Shown here: one piece after another, positions 55,633 to 64,000 of the stretch
Layout: the number at the start of each line of letters is the position of its first letter
How positions within the stretch are numbered: the first letter of the stretch is position 1
Source of the DNA: Maledivibacter sp.
Lineage (GTDB): Bacteria > Bacillota > Clostridia > Peptostreptococcales > Caminicellaceae
DNA: 64,000 nucleotides
NCBI GenBank assembly: GCA_025210375.1
Contig: JAOASB010000013.1
Coordinates: 62,001 to 126,000 of the forward strand
Direction of reading: 5' to 3'
Program-made: the position numbers and the translations under genes
The notes under the pieces: generated by a model
Seen by the model: only the letters and a program-made list of their open reading frames with translations
Database searches by the model: none
Told to the model about the DNA's origin: nothing

Positions 55633-56688
55633 TTATTTCTTCACATTTTCTATGTAGCTTTTTCTTAGCTGTCCACAAGCAGCATCGATATCGCTACCTA
55701 GTTCTCTCCTAATCGTTGCATCAATACCATTTTTCTTTAGTATTTTTTGAAATTCATATGCCCTTTCCCTTGTTGAACCTTTAAGTTGTTTTTCCTTAAC
55801 TTCATTAAGTGGAATAAGATTTACATGACAAAGCATATTTTTTAATTTTTGTGAAAGTTCAATGGCACAGGCTTTGTCATCATTAAACCCCTTTATTAAA
55901 GAATATTCAAAGGTTACTCTACGATTAGTCTTTTTAGTATATTTCTTACATGCATCTAAAAGTTTTTCAATATTATATACTTTATTTATAGGCATAATTT
56001 TATTTCTCATACTATCGTTTGGTGCATGTAGGGAAATAGCTAAAGTTATTTGAAGCCTTTCTTCCGCTAATTCAAGTAGTTTAGGAATAATGCCGCATGT
56101 GGACAGGGTAATGTTTCTCATACTTATGTTTAATCCTAAGGGGTCGTTAATTATATTAAAAAATTTGATAATCTCTTCGTAGTTATCAAGGGGCTCCCCG
56201 CTCCCCATAAGTACAACATTAGATATCCTCTCTCCATTATCCTTCTGTATAGACAATATCTGCCCAATAATTTCTCCGGAGGTCAAATTTCTCACAATCC
56301 CATCAATTGTTGAGGCACAAAAACTACACCCCATTTTACAACCTACTTGTGTGGATACACAAACAGTATTCCCATGCTTATATTTCATCAATACACTTTC
56401 AATAATGTTTCCATCCTTAAGAGCAAATAAATATTTTTTTGTCCCGTCGATCTTGGATTCTAATACCTTTAATATATCCATATTATTTACATATGATACC
56501 CTCTTAAGTTGGTTTTTGAATTTTTTAGATAAATTTGTCATAGAGTCTATATCATCAATACCTTTATAGACCCAACTAAATATTTGCCTTCCCCTAAACT
56601 TTTTTTCGCCTGCTTGAATTGCTAAGTCCTCTAATTCAACAATAGTACAACTTCTAAGATCAACCATTTTTTCCATAAAGTATTTCAC
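55633..56688 (-). CDS. rlmN: 23S rRNA (adenine-2503-C2)-methyltransferase RlmN
   Basis: 351 residues. Radical SAM cluster C117-x3-C121-x2-C124 (CKMGCSFC), EDLAIQAGEKKFRGRQIFSWVY near the start, GSGEPLDNYEEI, and the C-terminal DIDAACGQLR containing the second catalytic cysteine. RlmN methylates A2503 of 23S rRNA, and in some bacteria tRNA, by a ping-pong radical mechanism. A later ATG at 56676 is an alternative start. Confidence 0.93.
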   Translation of the reverse strand: MKYFMEKMVDLRSCTIVELEDLAIQAGEKKFRGRQIFSWVYKGIDDIDSMTNLSKKFKNQLKRVSYVNNMDILKVLESKIDGTKKYLFALKDGNIIESVLMKYKHGNTVCVSTQVGCKMGCSFCASTIDGIVRNLTSGEIIGQILSIQKDNGERISNVVLMGSGEPLDNYEEIIKFFNIINDPLGLNISMRNITLSTCGIIPKLLELAEERLQITLAISLHAPNDSMRNKIMPINKVYNIEKLLDACKKYTKKTNRRVTFEYSLIKGFNDDKACAIELSQKLKNMLCHVNLIPLNEVKEKQLKGSTRERAYEFQKILKKNGIDATIRRELGSDIDAACGQLRKSYIENVKK

Positions 56689-56896
56689 CTGTCCTTAATT
56701 ATTTATTACCCTATTTTTTGTCTTTTTAATCTATATTATCCCAATTATAATTTTAGTAGTTTTAAATTAAAGATTTTGTTTTAATTATACTATACAAACC
56801 CTATATAATGGGTATAAACTCTTCAAAATCCTTTTTCTTTCTTGTATCTTAAAAATAACAGCTTCTATACAGCTGTTATTTTCACTTGATTTATAG

Positions 56897-57646
56897 CTAT
56901 TTTATTGGAATATTGGTCTTTGATTCCAATTTCTTTCCTTTGGCTTTTAAATAGTTTTTCAACTTTTCCTTAGATGTGTTCATTATTAGTTCTTCAGGCA
57001 TTCCTACTAATTTAAAAACTTCAATTGAGTCATTAAATTTACCGACATCAAAGGAAATATGGGCATCACTACCTGCTACAACAAAAACACCAAGTTCCTT
57101 GGCTTTCCTAGCGATCATAATACAATTATCCTTGCTTCCACTTCTACCCGGGTTTGTAAATGTACTATTATTAATTTCGATAATCTTATTCTTCCTTTTA
57201 GCTCCTAAAACAAACTCCTCTACCTCTATTGGAAATTTAGGATTTCCAGGATGGGCTACTATATCTACATAATCATTATCCATAACCTTTAGGAATGCCC
57301 TTGTGTTTTGTTCCCTTGTTCCAGGCTGTATACACACATCATGTAGACTAGCAAGCACCAAATCTAATCTCTGTAAATAGTCTTTAGGTATGTCAATATT
57401 TCCATCGTAATCTATAATATTTGCTTCAACACCTCTTAGTATTTCAATTCCATCTATTTCTCTTGGTATCACCCTTTGATTGCCTATATGAAAAATATTA
57501 GGCCCTCCAGGCATAGCAGGTCCATGGTCTGTAAAGGCAACTAGCTCCAAACCTTTCTTTTTTGCTTCCACCACATAATCATGTATAGTGCTATATGCAT
57601 GCCCACTAGCAATAGTATGGGTATGAGTATCTAATACAAATTTCAT
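56897..57646 (-). CDS. PHP-domain phosphatase, YcdX family
   Basis: About 249 residues from the ATG at 57646, 8 nt after GGAGG; the upstream ATG at 57661 overlaps the ribosome site itself and is rejected. PHP motifs LDTHTHTIASGHAYS, AFTDHGPAMPG, DIVAHPGNPKFP and VAGSDAHISFD supply the metal ligands of a trinuclear hydrolase. YcdX-like proteins dephosphorylate small substrates. Single gene. Confidence 0.87.
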   Translation of the reverse strand: MKFVLDTHTHTIASGHAYSTIHDYVVEAKKKGLELVAFTDHGPAMPGGPNIFHIGNQRVIPREIDGIEILRGVEANIIDYDGNIDIPKDYLQRLDLVLASLHDVCIQPGTREQNTRAFLKVMDNDYVDIVAHPGNPKFPIEVEEFVLGAKRKNKIIEINNSTFTNPGRSGSKDNCIMIARKAKELGVFVVAGSDAHISFDVGKFNDSIEVFKLVGMPEELIMNTSKEKLKNYLKAKGKKLESKTNIPIK

Positions 57647-57733
57647 TGTTTTATCCTCCATATGTATAGGGTTTTTGAAGTATATACTAAAATCCCCATA
57701 TACTTGTTAATTTTTATATAAATATTTTAAACA

Positions 57734-58675
57734 TTAATAACCTTTATCTAAATCTACTATATTAATAAGCTCCTCACCATTCATATATCTTTTCATATTC
57801 TTATATAAATAATCAAATCTTCTCTTGTTTCTCATTTCAGAAATCCAGCAGTTATGTGGTGTTACAACAACATTGTTGAGGTTCCACAAAGGACTATCCT
57901 TTGGTAGCGGTTCTTTTTCAAATACATCTAGGGCAACTCCCTTAAATTTTCCCCCATTAATTTTTTTTATTAAACTTCCCTCATCAATAATACTACCTCT
58001 AGATACATTTATCAAATATGAACCATCTTTAAACATATTAATTGTAGTATCGTTAATCAGATGATGTGTATCATTAGTATAGGGAATTGCTAATACAACT
58101 ATATCTGATAGCGATAATATTTTATCTATTTCCTTTATTGAGTAGCATGTGTCAAAATACTCAACGTCTTTTCCCCTTGTGTTTAATCCTAATATATTAG
58201 CTTCAAATGACTTTAACCTTTTTGCAGTTTCCTTAGCAATAGTACCGGTTCCAATAAATCCTACTGTCTTGTTATATAATTCTAATATCGATGTATCTAT
58301 TTGCCACCTTTGATTTGATTGTTTTGTATAAAAACCCCTTGAATTTTTTAACATTTCCAGTACTTTTAAAACAATCCACTCACTAATTGGTATGGAATAA
58401 CCACCCTTATTATTTGTTAAAATAATACCCTTCTCCCTTATATACTCTAAGGGGGCTTGATCTATTCCTATACTCGATAACATAATCACTTTCAGATTTT
58501 TAAATTTAGAGATATCTAATGTGTTAAAAGGATTGTAACAAACTAATACTTCAACATCTTCTATTTCCTTTATATTGGTTAACTGTTTTTCATCTATATA
58601 AATAGTATCATATCCAAGTTTTTCAATACTCCTCATTTTCTCTTCCCCATAGTCATATGTAAATAGAACCTTCAT
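57734..58675 (-). CDS. D-2-hydroxyacid dehydrogenase family protein
   Basis: 313 residues. NAD-binding motif GFIGTGTIAKETAKRL, NVSRGSIIDEGSL with the catalytic Arg region, EKEPLPKDSPLW, and TPHNCW with the catalytic His. Phosphoglycerate dehydrogenase-like reductases interconvert 2-oxo acids and D-2-hydroxy acids using NAD(H). The substrate is not identified. The missing C-terminal ACT domain argues against a dedicated SerA. Confidence 0.85.
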   Translation of the reverse strand: MKVLFTYDYGEEKMRSIEKLGYDTIYIDEKQLTNIKEIEDVEVLVCYNPFNTLDISKFKNLKVIMLSSIGIDQAPLEYIREKGIILTNNKGGYSIPISEWIVLKVLEMLKNSRGFYTKQSNQRWQIDTSILELYNKTVGFIGTGTIAKETAKRLKSFEANILGLNTRGKDVEYFDTCYSIKEIDKILSLSDIVVLAIPYTNDTHHLINDTTINMFKDGSYLINVSRGSIIDEGSLIKKINGGKFKGVALDVFEKEPLPKDSPLWNLNNVVVTPHNCWISEMRNKRRFDYLYKNMKRYMNGEELINIVDLDKGY

Positions 58676-58761
58676 TCCCTTCCTCCTTTCCCAAAACAGA
58701 ACTCTAAAAACATCAACGCCCCACCCTTACTTAGATTTTGGGCGAAAAAAGACACCAATAA

Positions 58762-58791
58762 TTAAAAGCTACTGCAAAGCAGTAACTTTAA
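58762..58791 (-). terminator. terminator-like hairpin after the PilZ gene
   Basis: ACTGC-AAA-GCAGT with the flanking TTAAAAGCT and AACTTTAA partly paired. It overlaps the end of the PilZ gene, and the T tracts are short. Confidence 0.5.
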
Positions 58792-59132
58792 TTAAAAATC
58801 TCGTCTTCATATTCGTCAATATTTCCACTAAGAACATCGGCTAATCCTACAAATTCACAGCCCACGATAAATCCTTCGTTTATTTTCTGATTCCTTACTA
58901 TTCTAAGGACACTGTAAAAGGTTTTTTCATCGTCAATAGTTATTTTTGCATTAAAAAAGTAATCAATAGGTAGTTCTATTTCACTAATAAATCCAATTCC
59001 CATTTTAGAAACATTTATTACCGTAACCTCATCATTGATATTTTTTATGGTTTCGTCCCCAGATTTGTATAAAGAATCAATTGTTAGTTTTATGTTTACG
59101 GGTAATCTTTTGAACTTCCTCCTATCATCCAT
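58788..59132 (-). CDS. PilZ-domain c-di-GMP-binding protein
   Basis: 114 residues covering one PilZ domain: DDRRKFKRLPVNI gives the RxxxR-type motif and NVSKMGIGFISE the [DN]xSxxG motif that together bind cyclic di-GMP. Single-domain PilZ proteins act as adaptors on motility, adhesion or exopolysaccharide machinery. No partner gene is adjacent. Confidence 0.87.
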   Translation of the reverse strand: MDDRRKFKRLPVNIKLTIDSLYKSGDETIKNINDEVTVINVSKMGIGFISEIELPIDYFFNAKITIDDEKTFYSVLRIVRNQKINEGFIVGCEFVGLADVLSGNIDEYEDEIFN

Positions 59133-59315
59133 AAAAAAGCCTCCCTAATCATATCATTTATATTATTATACCATATATGCATCAAAATCTATGTCATCAA
59201 AATATGTTTTATCATAAACTATAATATAGATATGAAATGTTTTGCTCTATAAACAACTTTATTCATTATGACCACATATATTTCATGTCACATATAATTT
59301 AAATGGGGTATTATA

Positions 59316-59561
59316 ATGTCAGATAACTGTAAAGACTTTTTTAAAATCTTAAAATCCGAAACCTTTCTGGCCTTAATAAAGGCTGATAAAATTAAAATTG
59401 CACAGCTAAATGCAGCTATTGCTTTACTTATTAAATGTAATATTGACTTTGATGTAATATTTACTTCTGGAACTAATAGAGAAGATCCTCAGGCACTCCT
59501 TACAGTGTACATAAACCCTAATACTAATATAGATTTTACATTTGAATTTGACGGGTGTTAG
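59316..59561 (+). CDS. small protein of 81 aa, unknown function
   Basis: Starts at an ATG preceded by GGGGTATTATA, a modest ribosome site. Helical first half (FFKILKSETFLALIKADKIK) then a strand-rich, Asn/Thr-rich end. It has no membrane segment and lies alone on the plus strand, convergent with the FAD oxidoreductase gene. Coding looks likely from length and composition, but the family is not recognised. Confidence 0.5.
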   Translation: MSDNCKDFFKILKSETFLALIKADKIKIAQLNAAIALLIKCNIDFDVIFTSGTNREDPQALLTVYINPNTNIDFTFEFDGC

Positions 59562-59575
59562 TTAATCTGACTTCT

Positions 59576-60805
59576 TTATCTATCCATTCTAAATAAATCT
59601 AGAAATCTTGAATATTCACCAAAATATAAATCCTTAATCAGCTTTGCTCCAATAACGGCATATAAAATGCCATTTGACCCATAGCCAAGGCAAAAATAAC
59701 AGTTAGGATATTTCTTATACTCACCTATATAGGGTAATCCATCCTGTGACTCTCCAAATAAACCACTGAAACGATATTGTATTTCTATGTCATTTATTTT
59801 AGGCATTAGGCTTAGAAGTCTATTATTTAAAATTTGAAACTTTTCTATTGATATAGGATCATCATTGGTTAAAGTAGCTATTTTACTATTTTGTCCACCT
59901 AAATCTAAATCTTCTCCACCAATAATTATTCTATCATCACTTGTAGTTCGTAAATATGTATATGGATCATTTGTATCCCTGATTATACATCGTTTATGCC
60001 ATCCATCAAAATTTTTTATAGGTTTTGATACTAAGGTGAAGCTTCTTGTTAGTATTGCTGTTTTATTTTGTATGAGATCCTTCGCTTCAAATCCAGTTGC
60101 AAAGACAACTTTTTTTGCATTTATTTTAAATTGATTTTTAGTTACTAGTTCCACATGATTACTACATTGATTTATTTTCATTATCTCTGTATTTTCAAAT
60201 ACCCTTAATCCATGACCTAAAGAATGATTGATAAGAGCATGGGAAAAGGAATAGGGATCGATCTCTCCCCCACCTTTTTTTGAATATATTCCGGCTTTAA
60301 TTGGAAAAGAAAACATCTGATTGCCTCTTTTTTCATCAATAAATTCTACATCAAAACCATTCTTTTTTCTAAGTTCATATTCTTTCTTAAGAAGAGAAAC
60401 ATCTCCATCACTATTCGTATAATAGAAACAATCTCTAAGACTAAAACCGCATTTTTTCCCAAGGGCATCGATTATTTTTTTTATTTCATAAACCGCATTT
60501 TCAGTGAGCTTAAAACATGCTGCTGCATCATCGATCCCTATCATTCCCTTTAATCCTATGAGATCAGTGTCTATCTCATACTGTAAAATTGAAGTTGAAG
60601 CACTGGTACTTCCATATCCAATAATGTTTTTATCAACTATTATTGTATTTACTCCAGCCATAGCAAAATAGTATGCACAGATTGCTCCAGTTACGCCCCC
60701 ACCTATCACCACAACTTCACAATCTATATCATCGCTCAAATATGTAAATTTATTAGGAATACTATTAATATTTGTCCACAACATTTCTCCGGAAACTAAG
60801 TTCAT
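59576..60805 (-). CDS. FAD-dependent oxidoreductase (DAO family)
   Basis: 409 residues. FAD-binding VVVIGGGVTGAICAYYFAMAG near residue 31, a DKNIIGYGSTSASTSILQ block, VFATGFEAKDLI in the middle and GLFGESQDGLPYIG near the end, the marks of the glycine/D-amino-acid oxidase family. It oxidises an amine or amino-acid-like substrate that cannot be specified. Lies just downstream of msrA on the same strand with a gap of about 70 nt. Confidence 0.87.
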   Translation of the reverse strand: MNLVSGEMLWTNINSIPNKFTYLSDDIDCEVVVIGGGVTGAICAYYFAMAGVNTIIVDKNIIGYGSTSASTSILQYEIDTDLIGLKGMIGIDDAAACFKLTENAVYEIKKIIDALGKKCGFSLRDCFYYTNSDGDVSLLKKEYELRKKNGFDVEFIDEKRGNQMFSFPIKAGIYSKKGGGEIDPYSFSHALINHSLGHGLRVFENTEIMKINQCSNHVELVTKNQFKINAKKVVFATGFEAKDLIQNKTAILTRSFTLVSKPIKNFDGWHKRCIIRDTNDPYTYLRTTSDDRIIIGGEDLDLGGQNSKIATLTNDDPISIEKFQILNNRLLSLMPKINDIEIQYRFSGLFGESQDGLPYIGEYKKYPNCYFCLGYGSNGILYAVIGAKLIKDLYFGEYSRFLDLFRMDR

Positions 60806-60873
60806 ATTTAATCCTCCAGTTGTTAGATTTACTCCCCCTTTATTTTCTGTAATTCCTAATAAATATATACTTT

Positions 60874-61530
60874 TTATCGTCCATATCCTTCAACAATTTG
60901 CACCAATCTTTTTTGTCCTTTCTCAGATAAACCCAGAGTATATATTTCTTTATTAAGCATTTCCTTACTTCCATATCCCTTTATATATCCATTTACATGG
61001 GCAGCGGAGGTTGAATTGATAAAATCCGTAAAATTAGTATACATACTACTAAATTCATTCATAAGCTCTCGTACCAATTGCAGATAATGCTTCTGATGAT
61101 AATTCTCAGCCAAATAAAATTTTTCAAGCTCCCCGATCTCCGTGAATATTTTTGTCTTTTTTCTTACCTCTTCCCTTTCCTTGGACTTAAGGGCTTTCTC
61201 CCTTTGTTTCTCATCATGATAAAAGACCATGGATGCATATTGCCTTGAGGGAGCATTATATTCTGGAATGTGACTTCTCCAAAATATATCTAGCAGCTCT
61301 TCGTAGGATATAATCTGCGAGTCAAAGTCAATTTGAATGGTTTCCCCATGGTCCCCTAAATCATGATATGTGGGATACACCTTAGCTCCTCCTGCATAAC
61401 CAACTCTTGTACTAACCACTCCCTTTACAAGCCCAAACTGGGCATCTGGCCCCCAAAATCAGCCCATAGCAAAGGTAGCTGTCTCTAGTTCCTTTACTTT
61501 TAGTAAATCCATCCCAGGTAAATTTTCCAT
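60874..61530 (-). CDS. msrA: selenocysteine-containing peptide methionine sulfoxide reductase A
   Basis: 218 residues counting an in-frame TGA (61459-61461) at codon 24 as selenocysteine. From the ATG at 61530, with GGGAGAAG upstream, the frame reads MENLPGMDLLKVKELETATF, then AMG-U-FWGPDAQFG. TGA falls exactly where other MsrA enzymes have the catalytic cysteine of GCFWG. Downstream motifs RVGYAGG, YPTYHDLGDHGETIQIDF and NAPSRQYASMVFYHD are standard MsrA. A SECIS-like hairpin lies 15 nt beyond the TGA. The rest of the protein has no cysteine, as in the Sec-MsrA of Alkaliphilus (Clostridium sp. OhILAs). It repairs oxidised methionine. Reading the TGA as a stop would leave an enzyme without its active site. 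Confidence 0.9.
61431..61458 (-). promoter_or_regulatory. bacterial SECIS-like element of msrA
   Basis: In the mRNA, GCCCA-GUU-UGGGC (61431-61443) forms a 5-bp hairpin with a 3-nt loop beginning with G, 15 nt after the UGA codon. Bacterial SECIS elements lie just downstream of UGA, with a short apical loop containing an early G, and recruit SelB. The element is within the coding sequence, as expected. Confidence 0.75.
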
Positions 61531-61677
61531 ATTCAATCTTCTCCCTATAAAAAGTGTATTACTGATTAAAGTATATATATAGGGTTTTCATAGTATAACT
61601 TAACTTATGCATGGACAAATATGCGATGGTTCTGGGCATTTTGTACTTGTATAAGTTAAAGTCTATACTAAAATCCC

Positions 61678-61791
61678 TATATTATAGATATTCCAGTTAA
61701 ACAGTTAATTTATACACATCAAAACTCCCTAGAAACATCGGATATTTTGAGATGTATAAATTAAGTTTAACTTTTGGAAATCTATATTTTT
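61678..61791. repeat. MITE-like 114-bp inverted repeat
   Basis: Left arm TATAGATATTCCAGTTAAAC, then TTAATTTATAC and CAAAA. The right arm inverted is TATAGATTTCC, AAGTTAAAC, TTAATTTATAC and CAAAA. The arms are about 45 bases each with a 20-base centre. It fills much of the 396-base gap upstream of the DUF1850 gene. The same gap holds a copy of the CCCTATAT repeat near 61568-61600 and no gene. Arm-like copies occur at 51319 and 46611. Confidence 0.68.
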
Positions 61792-61926
61792 ACCCATAAA
61801 TCATGTTTAATAGACATTATCCCCAATTATATTTAGTAATGCATTTAAACACAGTAAATTTCATGTTAAACTGTTAATAGCCTAATAAAATGCTATTTCA
61901 TATATAGCTAAAGGAGCTGAAAAAAC

Positions 61927-62427
61927 ATGTTAAAGCTGCTAAAAAACATTGTCCTTCTTATTTTATTTATAGCTACTATATTGATTTTTATTAATATACA
62001 TGTACTAGTACTAGAAGATGTACAGAATAACAAAACCATTTTCATCGTAAAAGTTAATCCAAATGATGAATTCACAATGACATGGATGCATTCCGTTGAA
62101 TTACAACCCTGGGAAGAAATTTTTAGAATAGATGATGACTATCATGTTATATTGGATAGAACTAGATTCAAATCCTTTGGTGCAGGAGTACCAGATTATG
62201 CGGGTGATAAATCCGAGGTAAAGGATGGGTATGTAATCTTTAGCGGCATTAATAAAAAAATGAATGATTTACAATATGGAATTTCTGATTTTGCAAAGCA
62301 TACATTTAATTTTTCAGATAAAGAGTTAAGACTTTATGAGCATATAGAAGATGGCAACGCAATAAAGATCTATACAAAGCCTCTAAATATGCTAGAATAT
62401 TTTATAAAAAAAGCTGCTTCAATTTAG
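61927..62427 (+). CDS. DUF1850 protein associated with a TRAP transporter
   Basis: 166 residues: one N-terminal hydrophobic segment (about 5-27) acting as signal or anchor, then the DUF1850 pattern MTWMHSVELQPWEEIF and SFGAGVPDY. DUF1850 genes normally accompany fused TRAP permease genes, as here, where the two are convergent. The protein is probably exported and helps transport or folding in an undefined way. GGAG lies upstream of the ATG. The end overlaps a shared terminator hairpin. Confidence 0.82.
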   Translation: MLKLLKNIVLLILFIATILIFINIHVLVLEDVQNNKTIFIVKVNPNDEFTMTWMHSVELQPWEEIFRIDDDYHVILDRTRFKSFGAGVPDYAGDKSEVKDGYVIFSGINKKMNDLQYGISDFAKHTFNFSDKELRLYEHIEDGNAIKIYTKPLNMLEYFIKKAASI

Positions 62428-62442
62428 TTTAAGAAGCAGCTT
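62411..62442. terminator. terminator shared by convergent DUF1850 and TRAP genes
   Basis: AAGCTGCTTC/GAAGCAGCTT, 10-bp perfect stem with a 12-nt loop. The minus-strand side is followed by a long T run, the plus-strand side by a weaker one. The left arm encodes the last residues of the DUF1850 protein. Confidence 0.8.
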
Positions 62443-62452
62443 CTATACTTTT

Positions 62453-64000
62453 CTATGCATTGCTTAAAACTTTTCCATTAGATATTTTACCGGAAATGAA
62501 AACCAATAAGAAAATAGCAATCCCTATTACATCGGAAAATATTCCAGGTTTTATTAATAGTAGAGCCGATGCAAGCATAATTATTCTATATATTATGTTT
62601 AGCTTCTTATTTAGATATCCTTCAACTGAAGCTCCTAATGCAACTACACCTATCACCGCAGTAATAACAACTATAACAGTTTCAAATAAAGTTGTATTGA
62701 TAAGAAGTAGTGATGGAGAAAATACAAATATATATGGTACTACAAAGCCTGCCAAGGCTAATTTCACTGCTTGGAATCCAGTTTGTGCAGGTTTCCCACC
62801 GGCTATACCTGCTCCGGCAAATGCTGCCAAGGCAACGGGAGGTGTTAGATTTGCCAGCATCCCAAAGTAGAATACAAACATATGTGAAACTAAATGAGGT
62901 ATTCCCATTTTGGCTAAAGCTGGAGCTGCCATAGTAGCTGTTATTATATAGGCTGGAATTGAAGGCAAGCCCATTCCCAAAACAATGCAAGCTATCATTG
63001 TTAATATTAAAGTCATAAACAAATTTCCTTTTCCCAGGAAAAGAATTGCCCCGGCTAATTTTAGACCAAATCCAGTCAAGGTAGCTACTCCGATTATTAA
63101 TCCTACTACTGCACAGGACATTGCAACACCTAACGCTGTACGAGTCCCACTTTCTAAAGCATCTATTATATCCTTAAAACTCATCCTAGTCTCTTTCCTT
63201 AAAAAGCTCACCCCTATAGTTAAAAGAATTGACCAAAATGCGGCATATATTGGTGTCCTTCCGCTTATTAAAAAGTATAATAATCCCACTAAGGGTAATA
63301 AAAGATGTCCTCTTTGTTTTAATACATCAACCACCTTAGGCAATTGATCCTTGGGCATTCCTGTAAGTCCCTTTCTAGATGCTCTTAAATGAATTATTAC
63401 GATAACCCCTAAATAATAAAGCAGTGCCGGTATTATTGCTGAAACAGCAATTTTTATATATTCTATACCCAAATATTCTGCCATAATAAATGCCGCAGCA
63501 CCCATAACGGGTGGTAAAATTTGTCCACCACAAGAAGCGGCGGCTTCAACTGCACCAGCAAACTCCTTATCATATCCAATCTTTTTCATAAGGGGTATAG
63601 TAAAGGCCCCTGTAGTAACAACATTTGCAACGGCACTACCATTTATAGACCCTAAAAATCCACTTGATACTACGGCCACCTTAGCTGGTCCCCCTTTTCC
63701 GGACCCTGCAATAGCCATAGATAGATCATTAAAGAATTGTCCCATTCCTGATTTTTGTAAAAAGGCTCCAAATAGGACAAATAAGAATATATAAGTAGAC
63801 GAAACCCCTATGGCAATACCAAAAATACCTTCTGTAGTAAGATACATATATTCAGCTATATCCCTTAATCCATATCCTCTGTGGGCAATAATATTGGGAA
63901 GATTGCGTCCAAATAATGCATAAAGTATAAATAGTACTGCTAGTAAAGCAATTTCTTTCCCTGTAATTCTCCTAGCTGCCTCTAGCACAAGCAATATAGC
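62453..64000 (-). CDS. TRAP transporter fused permease, DctM-like (5' end outside window)
   Basis: About 515 residues visible and open to the window edge, so the N-terminal part is missing. A dozen or more hydrophobic segments. Motifs GSINGSAVANVVTTG, GAVEAAASCGGQILPPVMGAAAF and LGMGLPSIPAYI are typical of TRAP-type 4TM/12TM fused permeases, with ion-coupled uptake of organic acids via a periplasmic-type binding protein. The binding protein gene would be expected upstream, outside the window. Substrate unknown. Confidence 0.92.
   Translation of the reverse strand, partial: AILLVLEAARRITGKEIALLAVLFILYALFGRNLPNIIAHRGYGLRDIAEYMYLTTEGIFGIAIGVSSTYIFLFVLFGAFLQKSGMGQFFNDLSMAIAGSGKGGPAKVAVVSSGFLGSINGSAVANVVTTGAFTIPLMKKIGYDKEFAGAVEAAASCGGQILPPVMGAAAFIMAEYLGIEYIKIAVSAIIPALLYYLGVIVIIHLRASRKGLTGMPKDQLPKVVDVLKQRGHLLLPLVGLLYFLISGRTPIYAAFWSILLTIGVSFLRKETRMSFKDIIDALESGTRTALGVAMSCAVVGLIIGVATLTGFGLKLAGAILFLGKGNLFMTLILTMIACIVLGMGLPSIPAYIITATMAAPALAKMGIPHLVSHMFVFYFGMLANLTPPVALAAFAGAGIAGGKPAQTGFQAVKLALAGFVVPYIFVFSPSLLLINTTLFETVIVVITAVIGVVALGASVEGYLNKKLNIIYRIIMLASALLLIKPGIFSDVIGIAIFLLVFISGKISNGKVLSNA

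Follow-up and report, generated by a model that had tools for sequence, protein, structure and literature searches.

The analyzed window, a stretch of 64,000 nucleotides from Maledivibacter sp., carries the gene msrA for a peptide methionine-S-sulfoxide reductase on its minus strand (Table 1). Translation from position 61530 gave MENLPGMDLLKVKELETATFAMG-U-FWGPDAQFG..., a product of 218 codons with a single in-frame TGA, and the GxFWG catalytic motif is present in it as G-U-FWG. The reading frame runs upstream past a TGA at the Cys position of GCFWG, as claimed by the initial annotation, and the coordinates were confirmed. The ATG with a ribosome site was also recovered, with GGGAG about 10 nt upstream of it. 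The PMSR domain (PF01625) scored 133 bits compared to a cut-off of 23.7, and the NCBIfam model for msrA was likewise above its cut-off. A lack of Cys had been noted for the rest of the protein; there is none among all 218 residues and no resolving Cys. The only PF01625 match in the own genome (4.56 Mb, 97.4% complete) was this gene, which is apparently the only MsrA of the genome. A mechanical ORF caller returned a 181-aa fragment starting with the GTG at 61419, and this was the shortening to 181 codons foreseen for an automatic annotation. Judged by its sequence, a gene cut by a standard ORF call to an inactive fragment would encode a full selenium-dependent repair enzyme.

Table 1. Positions of the features discussed; those without a label refer to the window.
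Feature	Position	Strand	Evidence or remark
msrA, peptide methionine-S-sulfoxide reductase with predicted Sec24	60874..61530	minus	218 codons + TAA; PF01625 E 1.4e-38; TIGR00401 above cut-off
In-frame UGA, predicted to be read as Sec24, catalytic position of G-U-FWG	61459..61461	minus	TGA in 30 long-form rows
Probable ribosome-binding site GGGAG	61541..61545	minus	Sequence; nearest relative has AGGAGAAGAT before ATG
N-terminal extension and catalytic PMSR domain	61078..61530	minus	Pfam match covers residues 17-151
Helical domain at the C terminus (residues 152-218), corresponding to that of C. oremlandii MsrA	60877..61077	minus	phmmer alignment to 4lwj/4u66 through query residue 214
Putative SECIS hairpin GCCCA-GUU-UGGGC	61431..61443	minus	Stem 61443-61439 with 61435-61431; loop GUU 61438-61436
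FAD-dependent oxidoreductase (DAO, PF01266)	59576-60805	minus	68 nt downstream of msrA
selA	C45:149648-150742		E 5.7e-166
selB	C45:147696-149576		E 2.4e-121; directly downstream of selA
selD	C45:153215-154138		E 2.8e-120; own in-frame TGA
CPHC glutaredoxin	G000:C52:50436-50612 (L134:1459-1686)	minus	Reads TGC

An operon or a functional link between msrA and the gene for the FAD-dependent oxidoreductase was not supported, and this gene is absent from the 3.65-kb locus of the nearest relative. A promoter scan gave four sites versus a mean of 5.8 in shuffled sequences, which is no excess, and no terminator was found on the strand of msrA. Upstream of msrA in the relative G003, a gene on the minus strand (L105:2254-3588) resembles those for glutathionylspermidine synthase or a circularly permuted ATP-grasp protein, with a match below the Pfam cut-off (27 versus 29.3 bits).

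The initial annotation had implied that the host possesses selA, selB, selC, and selD. All of them were found, including a tRNA-Sec with the anticodon tca on the same contig as selA, selB, and selD (C45), so that a refutation by absence of the selenocysteine machinery failed. SelD contains a U in SSSGU, and two genes of the GrdB family read TSTUGT when their TGA is translated. The hairpins of grdB and selD in the own genome have G-first loops of 3 nt (GGU, GUU). The UGA sites in selD and grdB are located at known Sec positions of both proteins. With the UGA codons in msrA, selD, and two grdB genes, Sec is apparently used in at least four genes.

The in-frame UGA at the redox Cys position of MsrA is conserved in relatives. 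When 118 genomes of relatives were searched, the own genome included, 88 contained an MsrA match. Each of the 13 strongest matches, again with the own one, possessed exactly one TGA, as did a divergent 14th match (G072), and among the matches listed all others had none. A scan of named genomes yielded 80 MsrA loci. The codon aligned to residue 24 was read and the long form was kept, which resulted in 30 TGA rows and 13 Cys rows; L048 was left out of this codon count because its match begins after the catalytic codon. Three Cys rows (L065, L071, and L074) passed the length filter but are not of the helical-domain form. They were used in the 13-row Cys control only and left out of the 10-row controls, and the helical-domain form, named genomes included, is thus represented by 30 TGA rows and 10 Cys rows. 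In one Cys row, L054, a frameshift breaks the second half of the gene. Compared to the nearest relative (67% identity), the 194 codons after the TGA of msrA contain 60 synonymous and 60 nonsynonymous codon changes, and the changes fall on codon positions 1, 2, and 3 in numbers of 47, 30, and 92, an excess at position 3.

A bacterial SECIS is a hairpin downstream of the UGA with a G at loop position 1 or 2 and a loop about 16 to 37 nt after the UGA. The small hairpin with a G-initial loop that had been announced about 15 nt past the UGA was found as GCCCA-GUU-UGGGC at +16 to +28, with the loop GUU at +21, and agrees with this description in the loop G and in the distance. In the 30 TGA rows, 135 of 150 stem pairs were formed versus 97.5 expected (standard deviation 4.4, maximum of 112 in 2,000 shuffles) under a null model in which synonymous codons were shuffled within the usage of each gene and the kinship of the rows was ignored. 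This is an excess of about 8.6 standard deviations, again with row relatedness ignored. Together with the TGA shared by the 13 strongest matches and by the 30 rows, it excludes a chance occurrence. The 13 Cys rows formed 18 of 65 pairs versus 21.2 expected, and thus no excess. The share of paired cells in the alignments was 90.0% for the TGA rows and 32.0% for the 10 Cys rows. The covariation score exceeded all 500 shuffles in the TGA rows only, not in the 10 Cys rows. When small register shifts were allowed, at least four pairs plus a G at loop position 1 or 2 were present in 28 of 30 TGA rows and 2 of 10 Cys rows. Compensatory changes were seen in the outer pair, with GC in 16 rows and UA in 6, and in the inner pair, with AU in 13 and GC in 13. 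This indicates that the hairpin behaves as a SECIS at the level of the sequences, with pairing kept only where the codon is TGA. The 30 Sec rows versus the 10 Cys rows offer a clean natural demonstration that a SECIS persists only as long as Sec is in use.

A change of the outer pair from G-C to U-A needs a Ser at +6 together with a Ser at +10 after Sec. Six rows possess Ser at +6 (L028, L034, L035, L040, L045, and L051), and all six also have Ser at +10, so that the SECIS RNA may shape the protein sequence at these positions. Two TGA rows deviate: L115 lacks a good G-loop hairpin at the site, and L043 has three pairs only. RNAalifold did not recover the hairpin from all 30 TGA rows and did so only after removal of four divergent rows that were chosen after seeing them. 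The single-sequence energy z scores were unremarkable (+0.38 for 63 nt, +0.47 for 46 nt, and -1.38 for 21 nt), and the 46-nt fold prefers another structure over the hairpin. An Rfam search of positions 56000 to 64000 assigned no known RNA family to the hairpin site. Its only match with an E value up to 1 was an insect scaRNA, far below the gathering score.

The TGA may be a true stop codon that truncates msrA in the present strain, leaving a pseudogene, and the standard ORF caller indeed halts there and yields its GTG-started ORF. The same TGA, however, occurs in 30 long-form rows from many phyla, the equal numbers of synonymous and nonsynonymous changes after the TGA come with the excess at position 3, and conservation of the SECIS stem exceeds the synonymous null, so that a pseudogene is very improbable. 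An error of sequencing or assembly could have converted a Cys codon into TGA, as TGC and TGT are each one base away. The TGA is common to independent genomes, so that an error of sequencing at 61461-61459 is very unlikely, and the SECIS is present in msrA but lacking in the Cys forms; taken together, there is next to no chance that such an error created the codon.

Initiation at the internal GTG may alternatively lead to a functional short protein without the active site. Such an ORF exists, but it lacks the GxFWG motif, and in the nearest relative the part upstream of it is conserved in frame and has a ribosome site. We know of no case of a functional short MsrA lacking the active site, and this explanation is highly doubtful. 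A change of the genetic code, with UGA assigned to Trp or a different amino acid, is still less probable and can practically be dismissed: nothing was found in its favor, tRNA-Sec(tca), SelA, and SelB are present, and the other UGA sites seen are the known Sec positions in selD and grdB. Moreover, only three candidates for read-through exist in the window, and the two others resemble a stop codon with a new start after it.

Decoding of the UGA in msrA as Sec is the reading to be preferred. The observation made in the initial annotation is confirmed and its interpretation supported. Judged by sequence comparison, the product would almost certainly be a selenoprotein MsrA of the 1-Cys type with a C-terminal helical domain, with UGA decoded as Sec24 and recycling by glutaredoxin. 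A match to the known Sec-MsrA type of Alkaliphilus had been proposed, and the product aligned through both domains, residues 14-214, with the structures of the Sec-MsrA from Clostridium (Alkaliphilus) oremlandii at an E value of about 1e-61. This protein, CoMsrA (PDB 4lwj-4lwm, 4u66, 4w8c, and 7c13), shares with the present one the catalytic Sec, the absence of Cys, the helical C-terminal domain, and the length class (209 aa versus 218 aa), and the two are roughly half identical in sequence. The helical domain of CoMsrA is described in PMC4333827. According to the parts of PMC4333827 and PMC4479559 used here, CoMsrA contains a single Sec and lacks Cys, and its activity exceeds that of its Cys version 20-fold; it depends on the C-terminal helical domain, is reduced by glutaredoxin and not by thioredoxin, and can dimerize via the catalytic residue. 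Sec-MsrA is listed with its GUFWG motif and PF01625 as a prokaryotic selenoprotein in sections of two reviews (PMC13188914, PMC9312934), and the MsrA of Syntrophobacter fumaroxidans was named a selenoprotein in 2006 in a part of PMC1794560. The present msrA shares GUFWG and PF01625 with this family, without a difference of kind. The family is already characterized, and msrA adds a member to it.

By analogy, the mechanism of CoMsrA may hold for the present MsrA. SelB with Sec-tRNA would bind the short G-loop hairpin past the UGA, which would be read as Sec24. The Sec would attack methionine-S-sulfoxide, leading to a selenenic acid and release of methionine. Since MsrA possesses no resolving Cys, regeneration by glutaredoxin is proposed, by homology probably by the CPHC protein listed in Table 1, either directly or via an enzyme dimer.

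Two PF00462 glutaredoxins with the motifs CPHC and CSYC and without a TGA are encoded in the own genome. The CPHC protein matched the glutaredoxin of PDB 7c10/7c12/7c13 with an E value of 3.7e-31. In C. oremlandii, both glutaredoxin-1 and MsrA occur natively as selenoproteins, and the structure of the complex between the two has been determined, as stated in the part of PMC7642778 used here. The closest glutaredoxin in the own genome, in contrast, is a Cys protein (TGC), and no other difference from the C. oremlandii pair was found. A glutaredoxin match with an internal TGA occurred in 11 of 16 other genomes searched, nine of them at E values below 1e-8 and two weak ones. Among the loci that could be read, five (L168-L172) had the motif UPHC, with U in first place. 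The counterparts in G003, from the same family and 81% identical, and in G095, from another family and 80% identical, also have U where the own genome has TGC. A conversion from Sec to Cys in the CPHC glutaredoxin is likely from these alignments. In the loop region, the Sec forms read GAAAGA-GUA-UCUUUC and the own genome GAAGGA-GUA-UCUUUC, which can pair with one G-U, so that we infer a possible SECIS relic. Cys genes with remnants of a SECIS structure are known, as a section of PMC1794560 reports. The fold program does not choose this hairpin in the own glutaredoxin sequence, and conservation of the protein sequence could by itself account for the persistence of the hairpin sequence.

In the 97.4%-complete own genome, no MsrB (PF01641) was matched at an E value of 0.001, and a search for PF04262, the sole glutathione route covered, found no glutamate-cysteine ligase. 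Because neither was seen, repair may depend on MsrA as a single enzyme that obtains its electrons in an unusual way. We consider it a tentative possibility, with the chances slightly against it, that a tandem selenium relay, in which a Sec-glutaredoxin reduces Sec-MsrA, was split here, MsrA keeping its Sec and glutaredoxin exchanging Sec for Cys with a SECIS-like remnant. The pairing of a Cys glutaredoxin with a Sec-MsrA provides a natural test of the reason for Sec in both proteins of C. oremlandii.

The Cys long-form MsrA proteins (rows from Pontibacter, Thermoplasmata, Bipolaricaulota, Paenibacillus, and Halanaerobiales) have the same C-terminal domain and a GCFW motif but differ from the present MsrA by Cys instead of Sec and by absence of the SECIS pairing. 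The presence of selA was analyzed in 13 named genomes, picked out of 16 genomes with TGA long-form rows and 10 with Cys ones. It was found in all six TGA-bearing genomes, and the seven Cys-bearing genomes gave one strong match, one weak partial match, and five without any. The strong match belongs to a Halanaerobiales genome (L046) with a Cys long-form MsrA, and selA alone does therefore not dictate Sec. A TGA long-form MsrA with a SECIS is present in Salibacterium salarium of the Bacillaceae (L042:3001-3600), the genome of which has selA. At least five changes between Sec and Cys have to be assumed on a tree of 45 rows (bootstrap range 5 to 6), although the starred branches alone force only one. 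The best tree thus implies repeated switching between the two residues, but its root and many of its forks are uncertain. On this tree, the Cys long forms of the Thermoplasmata archaea L038 and L041 group with those of Pontibacter, which suggests transfer.
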